Shown: piece after piece, positions 44,257 through 59,576 of the stretch
How positions within the stretch are numbered: the first letter of the stretch is position 1
Layout of the letters: the number at the start of each line of letters is the position of its first letter
From: Bacteroidales bacterium
GTDB lineage: Bacteria > Bacteroidota > Bacteroidia > Bacteroidales > ML635J-15
Direction of reading: 5' to 3'
Length of the DNA stretch: 64,000 nucleotides
Assembly: GCA_003249955.1 (NCBI GenBank)
Contig: QKHS01000055.1
Location: forward strand, 1 to 64,000
Position numbers and translations under genes: made by a program
Notes under the pieces: model-generated
Database searches by the model: none
Told to the model about the DNA's origin: nothing
Seen by the model: the letters and a program-made list of their open reading frames with translations, nothing else

Positions 44257-44568
44257 ATGAAAGAAAAAACAAATGCATTAGGAAAAGTAATACTTGTAAT
44301 TATTCGTTACAAGTACCTTGTTGTAATATGTTTTTTTGCAATATGGATTACCTTTCTGGATTCCTACAACCTTATTGACCGCTTTAAAAACATGCAAAAA
44401 CTTAATGCACTTAACAAAGAAGTCGAATTCTTTAAACATGAGATTAAAGTTTACAACACCCAGTACAAAGAATTATTCTCGGACAAAAATGATCTCGAAA
44501 AATTTGCAAGGGAACAATATCTTATGAAAGAAGAGAACGAAGATATTTTTATTATTATCTCCGATTAG
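44257..44568 (+). CDS. FtsB/DivIC-like septum formation initiator
   Basis: 103 residues. One membrane helix (about 19-38, LVVICFFAIWITFL) followed by a periplasmic coiled coil (about 48-80) and the conserved end LEKFAREQYLMKEENEDIFII. Family proteins form a complex with FtsL and FtsQ at the division site. Its stop overlaps the convergent YqgE gene by 4 nt. Confidence 0.9.
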   Translation: MKEKTNALGKVILVIIRYKYLVVICFFAIWITFLDSYNLIDRFKNMQKLNALNKEVEFFKHEIKVYNTQYKELFSDKNDLEKFAREQYLMKEENEDIFIIISD

Positions 44569-45149
44569 TTTAATTCAGGGTCAACCGGAAAATTCTTCCA
44601 TATCTCATAGCGTTTATCCACCAGATCCAGTGATCTTCTCCACATATCAGAATCTGAGCTAAAAATAAATTCATCCGCAGAAGAAGCTACCAGCCAAGAA
44701 TTGAAAACAATTTCGTCATTTAACTGACCGGGAGCCCAGCCTGAATTCCCTAAAAAGAATTTGATATTATTTTCATTTGCATACCCGCTGTTTACAAGTT
44801 CTCTGATATCATCAAAATCGCCCCCTATGTACAAATCGCCACCGATGTTAACAGAACCTGAAATAAAATCAAATGTATGAATGCAGAACAACACATCCTG
44901 AGCTACAGGACCACCGTAATACAAAGGGATTTTATCATTTACGATTCCATCCATAACATCACTTAGTTTTTTGCCGGATTTAAGGTTAAGAATAAGCCCT
45001 GTAAATGAATCTTTCAGTTCTTCCACAATAAGTACAACGCTTCTGCCAAAATATTCGTCATTAAGCAGTGGTTCGGAAATAAGCAGCTTTCCCTCCGATG
45101 GTTTTACATCATTTGAGATAATGCGTAATATGTCCAAATCATACATCAT
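44565..45149 (-). CDS. YqgE/AlgH family protein
   Basis: 194 residues, about the family length. GKLLISEPLLNDEYFGRSVVL, FTGLILNLKSGKKLSDVM, PLYYGGPVAQDVLFCIH and FFLGNSGWAPGQLNDEI are the family blocks. Molecular function unresolved despite structures. Cytoplasmic. Start ATG 45149 (ATG 45146 is an alternative). Confidence 0.94.
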   Translation of the reverse strand: MMYDLDILRIISNDVKPSEGKLLISEPLLNDEYFGRSVVLIVEELKDSFTGLILNLKSGKKLSDVMDGIVNDKIPLYYGGPVAQDVLFCIHTFDFISGSVNIGGDLYIGGDFDDIRELVNSGYANENNIKFFLGNSGWAPGQLNDEIVFNSWLVASSADEFIFSSDSDMWRRSLDLVDKRYEIWKNFPVDPELN

Positions 45150-45299
45150 GGAACAAATTTACTGAAAATAATAATGCAAATAAAAACCATAATAATATTT
45201 TTTCGTGTTTTTGATATCATTTTTATGCGATTTGACCATTTTCCATGTCATTCTTATCTAAAAGTTGTAAAATCTATTATTTTTTTTATAAAAATAATA

Positions 45300-45410
45300 T
45301 TTACTTTGCATCGAAAATCAAATTCAAGTTTGATTTATCTTTTCTCTTTTTCATGGTTGATTGGGGTTAGTACAAAGAACCGGAGCACCAAACTCCGGTT
45401 CTTTTCTTTT
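45300..45410 (+). ncRNA. Structured small RNA, tandem copy 1
   Basis: Candidate promoter TTACTTTGCA (45301-45310) is followed by hairpin 1, AAATCAAA/TTTGATTT (45315-45336), then the conserved linker (45340-45372, reading TTTTCTCTTTTTCATGG then TTGATTGGGGTTAGTA), then hairpin 2, a 12-bp stem AAAGAACCGGAG/CTCCGGTTCTTT (45374-45404) with a T-rich tail. Predicted transcript about 95 nt. Copies 2 and 3 keep the linker but have different stem sequences. No protein frame fits all three. Confidence 0.8.
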
Positions 45411-45538
45411 ACATAATATTCACAGGTAAAAATAATTATTACCCATATGGCACATTATTTTTTTACCGTTAACTTTTCTTTAAGAATTTAACATGTGCTT
45501 TATGACAATAATCAACAATATCTTTAAATAAGTTGCGT

Positions 45539-45650
45539 TATCTTTGCAGTAACAAACATCAGAGTAAAATCTGATAATGTTTTCTCTTTTTCATGGTTGA
45601 TTGGGGTTAGTATTGAGCCTGAGTTTCCAAAAACTCAGGCTCTTTCATTT
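45539..45650 (+). ncRNA. Structured small RNA, tandem copy 2
   Basis: A perfect -7 element TATCTTTG at 45539-45546, hairpin 1 ATCAGA/TCTGAT (45558-45575), the same linker (45580-45612, identical to copy 1), then a perfect 12-bp stem GAGCCTGAGTTT/AAACTCAGGCTC (45615-45642) with tail TTTCATTTT. Predicted transcript about 95-100 nt starting near 45553. The distance from CTTTGCA to the linker is 31 nt (29 in copy 1). Confidence 0.82.
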
Positions 45651-45787
45651 TATATAATACAAAAACATGCTTTATCCAAAAACACAACACAATGTATCAT
45701 TTTTAAAACATTTGCACACATTTTACAACTTGTTATTATAAATTATAAAAAAGTCGTGCAACAAAACACCCCTAACCGGAGTTTTAT

Positions 45788-45880
45788 AAGCAAAGTAATA
45801 AGTATCATTACTTTCTCTTTTTCATGGTTGATTAGGGTTAATACAAGAACCCGGGCCCCAAACCCGGGTTCTTTATTTTA
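45788..45880 (+). ncRNA. Structured small RNA, tandem copy 3
   Basis: Hairpin 1 AAAGTAAT/ATTACTTT (45792-45814), linker with two G-to-A changes (45812-45843, GATTAGGGTTAATA), then hairpin 2 GAACCCGGG/CCCGGGTTC (45847-45871) and tail TTTATTTTATT. No promoter is recognisable at the position used in copies 1 and 2, so this copy may be silent or driven from elsewhere. Confidence 0.75.
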
Positions 45881-45910
45881 TTAGGTAGTGTTAAAAAAGA
45901 GGGTATTTAA

Positions 45911-46297
45911 GGATCAAGCAAAATTTCTGGGGGTTTACAAAAAACATGAAGTAAAAATATTTGCATTTAGAAAAAACAAGAAAATATTATTATCATTTTC
46001 TTTTGTCATTGCCACAAAAGAAACAAAAAGGCTAGGGAAAACAAAGCTTCACCCCACCTCAATCAAAACAACAGAATTGTATGACAACCGGGTCTAAAAC
46101 AAAGTTCCATCACACTTTCCCTTGCAACTTTGTTTTAGAGAATGACATAACAATGTCAGCTTGCCACAATTCTAGTTGTTTTGATTTTCACCTCCGGAGC
46201 TGGCCCGCAGTTTTCCCTCGGCCTGCCCGCATCGCTCTCATGAACATTTGTAGCTATGATTTTTTTTGACGCAGCCCCCAGAAATTTTGCTTGATCT
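45911..46297. mobile_element. MITE-like element with 22-bp inverted repeats and 8-bp target duplication
   Basis: Ends at 45912-45933 and 46275-46296 are perfect inverted repeats (GATCAAGCAAAATTTC then TGGGGG). GTATTTAA flanks both sides directly (45903-45910 and 46298-46305). Inside are further inverted arms: AATCAAAACAAC and AATTGT near 46062-46081 against 46165-46186, and TCTAAAACAAAGTT against AACTTTGTTTTAGA. No transposase gene. The right end matches the decayed copy at 301-545 in inverse orientation. Short open frames in it are not genes. Confidence 0.82.
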
Positions 46298-46372
46298 GTA
46301 TTTAAACAATAAAAATCTAAAAAATTTCCTTTCAGACAGCACAATTGCATTTATATCATAACAGGAATTTAA

Positions 46373-46924
46373 TTATACCCTATAAAAAACACACAGCAAA
46401 AAACAGATTAAATAAACCGGGCTCATTACAATTACAAATATCAGGTCTGTCGCAGAACTTTCTTCATTCTTAAACAGTGCTCCTTGACGGATAAAATACG
46501 GATTTATATTTTTATGATCTTCTTTCCTTGAATTCCGTTGGAAAAAGAAAACAGGCAACATAATCAGCAACGGAAAAAGAAATACTCTGAAAACAAACCT
46601 GTCCGAAACCGGATAGCCGGGAGAAACAAAAATAAAGAGATAATAACAAAATGTTATTACACCTATGTTTATAAAATAATTCCTGTAAATATTTTCCGAA
46701 TCCTGAATTGACAACCAAATACTGTAAATCCCTGATACTATCAGAAATAAAAATCCTGTTTGCTCATATTTAGCATTAAATGAAAGAATCAGAAATATTA
46801 TAGTGGCAAGCAAAAGGAACAAATTATGAGTAAAAACAGACCTTATAAACCAATTCTTCTTACCCTTAATATTCTCATACTCTGCAAACCGCTTATAAGC
46901 TTCTCTGAAATTAAAATTCTCCAT
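46373..46924 (-). CDS. Membrane protein of unknown function
   Basis: 183 residues with four to five membrane helices (about 32-50, 55-72, 83-102, 110-128, 160-180). Starts with an amphipathic helix FNFREAYKRFAEYENIKGKK. No recognised domain or motif. Lies 15 nt past the S9 peptidase gene in reading direction and may be read with it. Confidence 0.65.
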   Translation of the reverse strand: MENFNFREAYKRFAEYENIKGKKNWFIRSVFTHNLFLLLATIIFLILSFNAKYEQTGFLFLIVSGIYSIWLSIQDSENIYRNYFINIGVITFCYYLFIFVSPGYPVSDRFVFRVFLFPLLIMLPVFFFQRNSRKEDHKNINPYFIRQGALFKNEESSATDLIFVIVMSPVYLICFLLCVFYRV

Positions 46925-52005: not shown

Positions 52006-52626
52006 TTGATTCAAAACGATAAATATTTGTTTGAAGAAATAAAAGCCGGAAACAAAAGGGCTTTTGAGCAGATTTTCCGTATCTATTACCAGGATTTGTG
52101 CAGGTTTGCAATGTTTTTGTCCTGTAGTCCCGAAGATGCCGAAGAAATTGTTCAGGAAATGTTCTTCAGGCTATGGCAGAATCATAAAAACATTACTGTT
52201 CCTGTTGCTGTAAAATCATATTTTTATGCTTCGGTAAAAAATGCCGTACTTAACGGCATAAAACACGAAAAGGTAAAAGTTGCCTTCGCTCAGACAAAGC
52301 TAAACCCGGAATTCGACATGGACTCCTCCGAAATAATGGAAAATGCCGAATCTCTTAAAAACATTGAATACGCAATAAATCAGTTACCTGAAAAGAGACG
52401 GGAGATTTTTATCAAATGTAAAATAGATGGTTTAAAATACAAAGAAATTGCCGAAGAGTTAAAAATTTCGGTTAAAACTGTTGAAAACCAGATGGGAGAA
52501 GCACTTAAATTTCTCAGGGAGAAACTTTCCGGGAAAGAATTTATTTTTATTCTTTTAATTTCAGACTTTTTAATTAATAGTGAATTTATAATAGGGGTTT
52601 TTAATAACTTGGTTGTCTTTATTTAG
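52006..52626 (+). CDS. ECF RNA polymerase sigma factor (FecI-like)
   Basis: 206 residues. TTG start at 52006; no ATG would keep region 2 intact. Region 2: KRAFEQIFRIYYQDLCRFAMF and EDAEEIVQEMFFRLW. Region 4 with helix-turn-helix: LPEKRREIFIKCKIDGLKYK and VKTVENQMGEALKFL. The hydrophobic C-terminal tail (ILLISDFLINSEF) is usual in Bacteroidota members. Two bases before the FecR-like anti-sigma gene. It is released when the anti-sigma factor senses an outer-membrane signal. Confidence 0.94.
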   Translation: MIQNDKYLFEEIKAGNKRAFEQIFRIYYQDLCRFAMFLSCSPEDAEEIVQEMFFRLWQNHKNITVPVAVKSYFYASVKNAVLNGIKHEKVKVAFAQTKLNPEFDMDSSEIMENAESLKNIEYAINQLPEKRREIFIKCKIDGLKYKEIAEELKISVKTVENQMGEALKFLREKLSGKEFIFILLISDFLINSEFIIGVFNNLVVFI

Positions 52627-52628
52627 AA

Positions 52629-53603
52629 ATGCATTTCGAGAATAACATACCGGATTACGAATTACTGGCGAAATATCTTGCCGGAGAAGCATCTGCAGAA
52701 GAAACAGGGCTTGTAGAGGCATGGATAAATGATGGTAATCAGGAGGAATTCATTAACATTCGTGCAGTATGGATTGCGTCTGATTCATCTTCAAGAGAAT
52801 TTGATGTTGACAAAGCTTTTAATTCGGTAAATACCAGAATTGCAAAAACCGGATCGCGCCGCAGATTAAATTTTCTGAGCATTGCTGCTGCCGCAATAGT
52901 GCTTATTATTACCATCCCGCTACTGATATTAAGATTTGGCGGAAAAACAACGGAATCTCAAATGCTCAGCTTTATATCTCAGGATTCTGTTGCAAAAATA
53001 TCCATGGGTGACGGTTCTTTACTAACTCTTAATTCCGGCTCAAAAATAGAATATTCAGAAGATTTTGTCAATAACAGAAAAGTCACACTAAGCGGTGAAG
53101 CTTATTTTGAAGTTGCTCATATTGATAACAGTCATAAATTTACAGTTGAAGCCAAAGAACTCGAAATTACCGTTGTGGGAACAAAATTTAATGTAAAAGC
53201 AATAGAAAGTTCCGACATAGTTGAAGTAAGCGTTACCGAAGGTATTGTTAAAGTAAGACAAAAAGACAGCGGGGACTATATTGAATTACGGATTGGGGAA
53301 AAAGTAAGTTTTAATACCAATACCGGGGAATTTATAAAAGATTCTGCATCCACTGTTAATGATATTTACTGGATTACAAAAAAAATAGTTTTCGATAATG
53401 CAGGATTAAGTGAAGTTGCCTCTACCCTTTCGTCTGTCTATGGAGTTGACGTAAATATTGATATGGAAAATTCAGACAGCCTCAGGCTTAACACTTCATT
53501 TGAAAACAACAGTCTTGACGAAGTAATAAAAATTCTTGAGCTGACACTTGATATAAAAATAGTAAAATCCGGTAATTCAATAAGTTTCAGGAATGTTGAA
53601 TAA
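52629..53603 (+). CDS. FecR-like anti-sigma factor (FecR + DUF4974)
   Basis: 324 residues. Cytoplasmic N-terminus (about 1-78) binds the sigma factor; one membrane helix about 82-101. Periplasmic FecR domain (about 115-210): ISMGDGSLLTLNSGSKIEY then VTLSGEAYFEVAH. The C-terminal DUF4974/STN-like domain (about 255-324): KIVFDNAGLSEVASTLSSVY and SLDEVIKILELTLDI. Its 3' end overlaps the next gene by 11 nt. Confidence 0.94.
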   Translation: MHFENNIPDYELLAKYLAGEASAEETGLVEAWINDGNQEEFINIRAVWIASDSSSREFDVDKAFNSVNTRIAKTGSRRRLNFLSIAAAAIVLIITIPLLILRFGGKTTESQMLSFISQDSVAKISMGDGSLLTLNSGSKIEYSEDFVNNRKVTLSGEAYFEVAHIDNSHKFTVEAKELEITVVGTKFNVKAIESSDIVEVSVTEGIVKVRQKDSGDYIELRIGEKVSFNTNTGEFIKDSASTVNDIYWITKKIVFDNAGLSEVASTLSSVYGVDVNIDMENSDSLRLNTSFENNSLDEVIKILELTLDIKIVKSGNSISFRNVE

Positions 53604-58316: not shown

Positions 58317-59576
58317 ATGAAACGGTTTTTATTCACAATATTCCTTTCGCTGATTCTTGCCGGGACTTTAAAACCGGCCTATATTCTTATTCCTATGGAT
58401 GACAGCCAGAAAGACCATTTAAAAGCTTACGGAATAACTTACTGGACTCTACAAAATGAAGTAGAAGCCTGGTGGTTATTAAATTATCGCGGGGGAAGTT
58501 TTTTACTTTTATTTAATAAAGACATTGAAAAAGAATGCATTTTAAGGGGAGTTTCGTATGAAATAATTGCCGATGCTCAAAAGAACAGCATCTTTAACGA
58601 AATTTCTGCTCCATCTGTAAATATGGATGCGGTAAAACTTGAAAAAGCCCCGAAAATTGCTGTTTACTCCCCTCCTTTCTCACAACCATGGGATGATGCG
58701 GTAACTCTTGCATTAACTTATGCTGAAATTCCTTATGATATTATTTATGACAGGGAAATTCTCAATGGAGAACTTGCAAATTATGACTGGCTTCACCTTC
58801 ACCATGAAGATTTTACAGGCCAGTACGGAAAATTCTATGGTGCTTACGGGCGTATGCAATGGTATCGTGATAATCAAAAAGCTACAGAAGAAGAAGCATT
58901 ATCAATGGGTTTCAACAAAGTCTCTCAGTTAAAACTTGCTGTTGCACAAACAATCAAAGCTTATGTAGCTGAAGGAGGCTTTCTTTTTGCCATGTGTTCC
59001 GCTACCGACTCATTTGATATTGCTCTTGCTGCCGAAGGAGTCGATATTTGCGAATCTATGTTTGACGGCGATCCTGCCGATCCTGATGCACAATCAAAAC
59101 TTGACTACTCAAAATGCCTTGCATTTACAGATTTCACCCTTGTAAGAAATCCTATGGAATATGAGTACTCTGATATAGATGTAACCAAAACAAAGAAAAC
59201 CGGAAATAATGATGACTTTTTCGTTCTTTTCGAATTTTCGGCAAAATGGGACCCTGTTCCTACTATGTTGTGTCAGAACCACACTAATATGGTTCGTGGT
59301 TTTATGGGACAAACCACTGCTTTTAAAGCCGAATTGGTGAAACCAAGTGTTCTTATAATGGGCGAAAACAAAGCAGCAGGCGAAGTAAGATATATTCATT
59401 CCGAGTTCGGCAAAGGGATGTGGACATTTTACGGTGGCCACGATCCAGAAGATTACAGACATTATGTAGGTGATGAAAAAACAGATCTCTCGCTTTATCC
59501 AAACTCTGCCGGCTACAGATTAATTCTTAACAACGTACTCTTCCCTGCTGCAAAAAAGAAAAAACTTAAAACTTAA
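58317..59576 (+). CDS. Conserved exported protein, labelled asparagine synthetase B-like in relatives
   Basis: 419 residues from ATG 58317. Signal-like N-terminus (about 1-22). First part ILIPMDDSQKDHLKAYGITYW and VEAWWLLNYRGGSFLL. From about 110, a class-I glutamine-amidotransferase-like fold: KIAVYSPPFSQPWDDAVTLAL, YDWLHLHHEDFTGQYG and GGFLFAMCSATDSFDIALA, with C-terminal GKGMWTFYGGHDPEDYRHYVG. Homologs carry the name asparagine synthetase B, but no ATP-pyrophosphatase (SGGxDS) motif or N-terminal Cys nucleophile exists, so that name is not supported. Function unknown; common in Bacteroidota. Confidence 0.75.
   Translation: MKRFLFTIFLSLILAGTLKPAYILIPMDDSQKDHLKAYGITYWTLQNEVEAWWLLNYRGGSFLLLFNKDIEKECILRGVSYEIIADAQKNSIFNEISAPSVNMDAVKLEKAPKIAVYSPPFSQPWDDAVTLALTYAEIPYDIIYDREILNGELANYDWLHLHHEDFTGQYGKFYGAYGRMQWYRDNQKATEEEALSMGFNKVSQLKLAVAQTIKAYVAEGGFLFAMCSATDSFDIALAAEGVDICESMFDGDPADPDAQSKLDYSKCLAFTDFTLVRNPMEYEYSDIDVTKTKKTGNNDDFFVLFEFSAKWDPVPTMLCQNHTNMVRGFMGQTTAFKAELVKPSVLIMGENKAAGEVRYIHSEFGKGMWTFYGGHDPEDYRHYVGDEKTDLSLYPNSAGYRLILNNVLFPAAKKKKLKT

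Follow-up and report, generated by a model that had tools for sequence, protein, structure and literature searches.

What do three tandem units encode that share a nearly frozen stretch of sequence set between two hairpins differing from copy to copy? The question is raised by the plus strand of the window analysed here, a 64,000-nucleotide stretch (contig C76) of a 4.7 Mb Bacteroidales assembly, in which the units occupy positions 45301-45411, 45539-45651 and 45757-45884. Each comprises, in order, a 5' hairpin, a near-invariant linker of 32-33 nt and an intrinsic terminator with a stem of 11-12 bp and a T-rich tail. The linkers are spaced 240 and 231 nt apart, in agreement with a first-pass annotation that had placed three units some 235 nt apart at this very location and had credited them with terminator hairpins of 9-12 bp (Table 1). 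The CTTTGCA element that it had marked in copies 1 and 2 is there too, ending 29 and 31 nt before the linker, while its remark that the spacers share nothing holds except for short matches, which are all they have in common. The array is flanked on one side by yqgE (ORF 44565-45149, minus strand; Pfam DUF179/AlgH-like) and on the other by a MITE-like element (45903-46305), which has 22-nt perfect terminal inverted repeats (45912-45933 and 46275-46296) bracketed by GTATTTAA as an 8-nt direct repeat; in the other fetched loci a 17-nt inner segment of the repeat was not seen away from this site. We regard the units as very probably functional small-RNA genes, and our preferred reading, to which we give a probability of roughly 0.7, is that they are multicopy trans-acting sRNAs that mask start codons in the manner of FopS and GibS.

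Table 1. Positions of the parts of the three-unit array and its upstream elements in the window
Feature	Position	Strand	Basis
TCTAAaagttGTAAAAT element before copy 1; candidate regulator or -33 site	45257-45273	+	
Copy 1 promoter -7 box TTACTTTG, one base off TAnnTTTG	45301-45308	+	
Copy 1 5' hairpin, arms AAATCAAA / TTTGATTT	45315-45336	+	folding
Copy 1 linker; putative target-pairing region, antisense to AATCAACC-ATG-AAA-AAG-AGA	45340-45372	+	
Copy 1 intrinsic terminator, 12 bp stem and T-rich tail	45374-45411	+	
Copy 2 promoter -7 box TATCTTTG, full TAnnTTTG	45539-45546	+	
Copy 2 5' hairpin, arms ATCAGA / TCTGAT	45558-45575	+	folding
Copy 2 linker	45580-45612	+	
Copy 2 intrinsic terminator, 12 bp stem and T-rich tail	45615-45651	+	
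Copy 3 TGCAACA element; possible -35 of another sigma factor or regulator site	45757-45763	+	
Copy 3 5' hairpin, arms AAAGTAAT / ATTACTTT; last bases overlap linker	45792-45814	+	
Copy 3 linker, type with AGGGTTAATA	45812-45843	+	
Copy 3 intrinsic terminator, 11 bp stem and T-rich tail	45845-45884	+	

The linker recurs within the GTDB family. Searching with its 26-nt core at up to 3 mismatches finds 28 copies in 14 of 31 family genomes, as against none of the 31 with a reversed control pattern, and a covariance model built from those 28 copies recovers exactly these at E <=0.1, without a match in the remaining 17 genomes. Matches combining a conserved linker with changed stems, which the first-pass annotation had proposed to look for, are present elsewhere in the family. 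The first copy adjoins yqgE in 13 of the 14 carriers, the exception being G016; G003 has a second copy at another place. The copies that lie away from yqgE in G003 (L091) and G016 (L086) are near homologues of window ORFs 58317-59576 and 52111-53603. The 14 stretches with linker records, all from uncultured Bacteroidales, Marinilabiliales or Bacteroidota assemblies, divide into 12 sRNA loci and 2 gene starts on the opposite strand (L107, L118). An order-wide sample of 393 genomes (5 of the same family, 388 of other families) yields matches to the copy-3 form of the core in its own genome and two others. Two of the 388 other-family genomes match, and both matches are MKN and MKK gene starts on the other strand; the linker's sole matches outside the family, L105 (the same sequence as L107), L106 and L118, are such opposite-strand MKK/MKN starts, with ORFs of 269, 502 and 540 aa at L105, L106 and L118. 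Spread by phages or viruses was considered and rejected, as a viral collection gave 0 matches to the pattern. Two diverged relatives that fall outside the pattern, L191 (G001) and L241 (G025), read CTCTTTTTCATGGTTATTGGG(G)TTTTAGTT at another locus and carry a TAnnTTTG-type box and a terminator; by eye we take their neighbouring frames to resemble AMP nucleosidase and ribonuclease Z.

The linker reads TTTTCTCTTTTTCATGGTTGATTGGGGTTAGTA in copies 1 and 2 and TTTCTCTTTTTCATGGTTGATTAGGGTTAATA in copy 3; copies 1 and 2 share its 26-mer TTTTTCATGGTTGATTGGGGTTAGTA without change, and copy 3 departs from it at two bases. Across the 28 family copies 22 of 33 linker columns are invariant, and every change observed in the 26-nt core falls in its 3' third, although the search tolerated mismatches anywhere in the 26 nt. 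Its reverse complement, TACTAACCCCAATCAACC-ATG-AAA-AAG-AGA-AAA, reads like the start of a gene of this phylum, so that the linker is, to judge from its letters, antisense to a translation start, a character that is new here and that the first-pass annotation had missed. In centroid folds the linker is mostly unpaired. RNAalifold on a MAFFT alignment returned only 7 weak pairs within the linker and no compensatory change, an outcome that speaks against structure within the linker and is uninformative for the hairpins because the hairpins are not aligned.

Taken whole, the units have more stable folds than their dinucleotide shuffles (z -3.7, -4.5 and -3.7 for copies 1-3), an excess that comes mostly through the terminator, which is present and folds better than shuffles in all 28 copies (z -3.3 to -7.8). 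Folded alone, the 5' region gives p values of 0.067, 0.053 and 0.133 in the window copies and p <=0.05 in 18 of the 28 family copies, none of the three window copies among them. In place of the uninformative consensus folding we exchanged hairpin arms between copies, cutting the arms at each copy's native fold, which biases the comparison toward the native pairing. Native 5' hairpins average -5.4 kcal/mol vs -2.5 when exchanged, and native terminators -18.4 vs -9.1 kcal/mol; in each case 0 of 500 permutations reach the native value. Only 7 of the 28 native 5' hairpins beat 95% of their own chimeras, as compared with 24 of the 28 terminators, because orthologues share stems: the 5' stems are conserved in sequence within one paralogue type, and most of the stem change therefore lies between types. 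The 5' hairpin is the weaker half of the pattern. Since arm exchange weakens both hairpins, the kept structure that had been read from three copies holds across the family, and the proposal that the linker is selected as sequence and the hairpins as structure is borne out both by the invariant columns and by native arms that pair better than exchanged ones.

If the linker is antisense to gene starts, which starts might it cover? In its own genome there is one 18/18 complementary site outside the sRNAs. Its centre is the start codon of a gene on contig C70 for a giant secreted protein, whose frame stays open for at least 2,800 codons in the piece read and for 3,384 in the homologue search. Perfect sites are expected at about 0.0013 (331 sampled genes), a figure that stands before allowing for post hoc choice of the 18-mer and for non-coding sites. 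Pairing at this site is predicted at -26.0 kcal/mol, the best of the 331 sampled own genes reaching -23.6. Over those 331 start regions the linker pairs with a better mean energy than all 100 shuffled linkers and with a better best 5% than 97 of them, and its start-minus-CDS energy difference outdoes all 100 on both measures; such start-region complementarity above shuffled controls is to be expected of an sRNA that masks start codons. For the real linker, start regions do not give a lower mean energy (-11.52) than regions at +70 within the CDS (-11.85); only the best 5% differ, at -20.6 for starts vs -18.5 for CDS. The bases preceding ATGAAA genes show hardly any preference for AATCAACC, matching it at 2.57 of 8 positions vs 2.40 when permuted. 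The linker half GGGGTTAGTA is not accounted for by the one perfect site. Elsewhere in this genome, a stretch like CATGGTTTATT(C)CCC(T)GCCAAATTACAGAATATTT is repeated at several places on contig C13, between about 11.9 and 62.2 kb (L005, L008).

Across the family, AACCATGAAAAA occurs outside the sRNAs at 76 sites in the 14 carriers (50.2 Mb) vs 46 in the 17 non-carriers (52.6 Mb), an excess confounded by the counts for a control pattern (22 in carriers vs 19 in non-carriers) and by AT-rich clade structure. Of the 76 carrier sites 75 were read, and 37 of these are the starts of ORFs of 40 aa or longer, with homology in scattered pairs only. A single conserved target was not found: the carrier sites in the 14 genomes are not on one orthologous gene. 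That homology comparison omitted the C70 protein. A separate search for its homologues found them in 12 of the 14 carriers and in 3 non-carriers, 15 of 31 genomes in all. Their start sites are weaker and varied, -7.1 to -22.2 over the starts listed, the homologue in G004 retaining AAACC-ATG-AAAAAG at -22.2. SusC/TonB receptors as main targets were rejected for poor pairing: the 22 SusC-like starts found among 30 fetched loci have energies of -7.8 to -19.7, and only 1 of 35 matches passes the SusC cut-off.

Is the family already known under another name? The sole gathering-level Rfam match in the whole window is a tRNA, and Flavo-1 and Bacteroidales-1, two families whose relevance had earlier been left undecided, are absent among the 24 matches at E <=10 over the locus. 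Matches to ncr1015, MicC and csRNA lie far under their cut-offs, are mostly terminator-driven, and were set aside. Searches of openly available full-text literature brought up FopS, GibS, BatR and Rfp18 but no account of this locus. The sRNA family has no match at threshold in Rfam release 15 and is undescribed.

The nearest comparison is with FopS, a group of 14 sRNAs in B. thetaiotaomicron that cover start codons and block initiation (PMC11697453). FopS of Bacteroides (RF04319) is likewise multicopy with an intrinsic terminator, has a UUUUUCAU(A/G)GU core antisense to start codons and GGUUAA further 3', and blocks translation of susC at the initiation region, a masking of the kind also proposed here (PMC11697453). 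As for differences, FopS is described with a single-stranded 5' end (PMC11697453), a feature that the family copies, with their 5' hairpin, lack; the present units stand in tandem beside yqgE with a linker near-invariant over 33 nt, their third copies are without a TAnnTTTG promoter, and the host has few SusC genes. By analogy the sRNAs may work like FopS. GibS of the same species, which occludes start codons, resembles the units in a conserved single-stranded seed that pairs over the start codon and, like the third copies here, is without a canonical promoter, using the non-canonical PM2; compared by description, it differs in being a single gene of 145 nt with an extended single-stranded 5' end and seeds R1 and R2 (PMC7366714). 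BatR of B. thetaiotaomicron is an sRNA reported to bind the initiation regions of cell-surface genes, and by its description differs in length (154 nt), processing and seed location (PMC10861873). Rfp18 of Flavobacterium psychrophilum is an sRNA conserved in Bacteroidota whose predicted targets include secreted proteases and an adhesin; as described, it differs in pairing via its third stem-loop, and its deletion lowered two protease mRNAs (PMC9723704).

The likeness to FopS could also be one of descent, the units being true relatives that derive from a common ancestral R1-seed sRNA, spread through the Bacteroidales and diverged below the Rfam threshold. Copy 3 does align to the FopS model on UUUUUCAUGGU and GGUUAAUA, so that a TTTTTCAT(A/G)GT and GGTTAA core is common to both, but it scores 22.6 bits against a gathering cut-off of 56. 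Copies 1 and 2 are not among the RF04319 matches at E <=10, 17 relative loci gave no FopS match at E <=5, and none of the 31 family genomes passes the cut-off, the highest score being 40.5 bits at another locus in G013. The linker-3 score is reached by 26 of 5000 shuffles and that of linker 1 by 61 of 5000; when the antisense sequences of ordinary ATGAAAA starts are scored against the FopS consensus, 14 of 63 reach the linker-3 score, with a best of 35. Shared function alone can therefore explain the resemblance to FopS, which ordinary antisense gene starts show just as strongly. Two further sets of elements favour descent. One is a match in L319 (G028, locus 1088-1155) that has a TATTTTTG box, TTTTTTTCATAGTTGATTTGGTTTTAGGTTA and a strong terminator, and scores 33 against FopS (reached by 0 of 5000 shuffles) and 29 against the linker (5 of 5000); with its TTTTTCATAGTTGATTTGGTTTTAGGTTA it looks like a possible intermediate sRNA. 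The other is GTGTTTTTCATAGTATTAG, near-identical to the FopS consensus and followed by a terminator, in L312 (G010) and L316 (G006) at locus 1501-1552. G006 and G010 are of the same genus and are without the tandem sRNAs, and in both GTGTTTTTCATAGTATTAG lies directly 3' of the stop codon of a gene that by eye we take to be GAPDH; these elements are possibly 3'-UTR FopS-like sRNAs. Together with L319 they hint at a wider class. We consider common descent possible, though we lean against it.

Alternatively, the linker may chiefly serve to bind a protein, for instance an RRM protein like RbpB, with the RNAs acting as sponges or decoys. FopS associates with the RRM protein RbpB, and the strongest RbpB motif in B. 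thetaiotaomicron is a 41 nt stretch in FopS (PMC11697453); the own genome encodes two RRM_1 proteins, and so long an invariant single strand exceeds the usual seed. What this explanation does not predict is a start-codon complement in register with real gene starts, and we hold it to be improbable. Near one RRM_1 gene (C18:101470-101679), and in the same sense, lies TTTTTTATGGTTGATT (C18:101176-101191, L006), one base from the linker core, which could be chance or a seed mimic. A cis-acting leader mini-ORF or attenuator, to which the ATG-GTT-GAT-TGG within the linker and the terminator after it might point, is very improbable: each unit has its own terminator behind it, the next downstream gene (ORF 46373-46924) is on the opposite strand, and the frame reads MVDWG-stop in copies 1 and 2 and stops after MVD in copy 3, as the first-pass annotation had recognized in calling it non-coding. 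That the array is a mobile repeat or assembly artefact, a thought invited by a tandem repeat adjoining a MITE-like element and by named linker-bearing genomes that are metagenome assemblies, is hardly conceivable and is refuted by the same array's conserved position beside yqgE in independent assemblies with diverged spacers, stems and flanks.

Returning to start-codon-masking sRNAs, we find that the copies differ upstream. The -7-type box of copies 1 and 2 has no counterpart in copy 3, and the family repeats this division. All 12 first-position copies examined have TCTAA at a distance of 73-92 nt ahead of TTTTTCATGG, a count that omits G026.1, G016.1 and G003b.1. A TWnnTTTG box is present in 18 of the 21 copies that are not in third position, at -50 to -34 in 17 of those 18. 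All 7 third-position copies have TGCAACA at -57 to -63, as do 2 of the 21 others, and none of the 7 has TAnnTTTG. Such differences among first-, second- and third-position copies suggest one effector with several possible inputs. We can only guess at an alternative sigma factor for copy 3; a loose TGCAACA-N-GTTAT pattern gave 2 matches in the window plus 400 kb of the own genome, and no wider regulon.

Anatomy, conservation, antisense content and the differing upstream elements are observed; from them we infer transcription, target repression, the signals and any RRM protein partner. The locus would express three paralogous trans-acting sRNAs of about 95-100 nt each, whose transcripts would start near the 5' hairpin, a structure that may protect the 5' end, present the unpaired linker of about 33 nt, and end at the intrinsic terminator. 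An own promoter, an unpaired seed and an intrinsic terminator, all marks of an sRNA of this kind, are here read from sequence. Pairing of the linker with an mRNA would occlude the start codon and keep the ribosome off, as happens with FopS and GibS, and would require no Shine-Dalgarno sequence. Copies sharing this effector and differing upstream would allow different signals to feed one output.

To our knowledge, the Bacteroidota are without Shine-Dalgarno-led initiation and without an obvious Hfq or ProQ. FopS is the worked example of sRNA targeting in the phylum and has been described within the Bacteroidaceae. The present locus would add a second family, outside the Bacteroidaceae, that follows the same start-codon logic but is built differently and has separate elements upstream, and its frozen linker yields a concrete target prediction. 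In its fullest form, which we rate somewhat below even odds, the proposal is that an undescribed sRNA family of uncultured Bacteroidales carries a near-frozen 33-nt anti-start-codon sequence in as many as three genes in tandem, each with conserved upstream elements of its own. One silencing address would then be reached by several signals (through the canonical sigma factor, through TGCAACA as the site of an alternative sigma factor or a regulator, and through TCTAA as an operator), and the family, with the L319-like and GAPDH-downstream elements, would join FopS in a phylum-wide class of start-codon-masking sRNAs. A second family of the kind described would in any case test whether sRNAs throughout the phylum generally act by covering start codons or whether FopS is peculiar in doing so.
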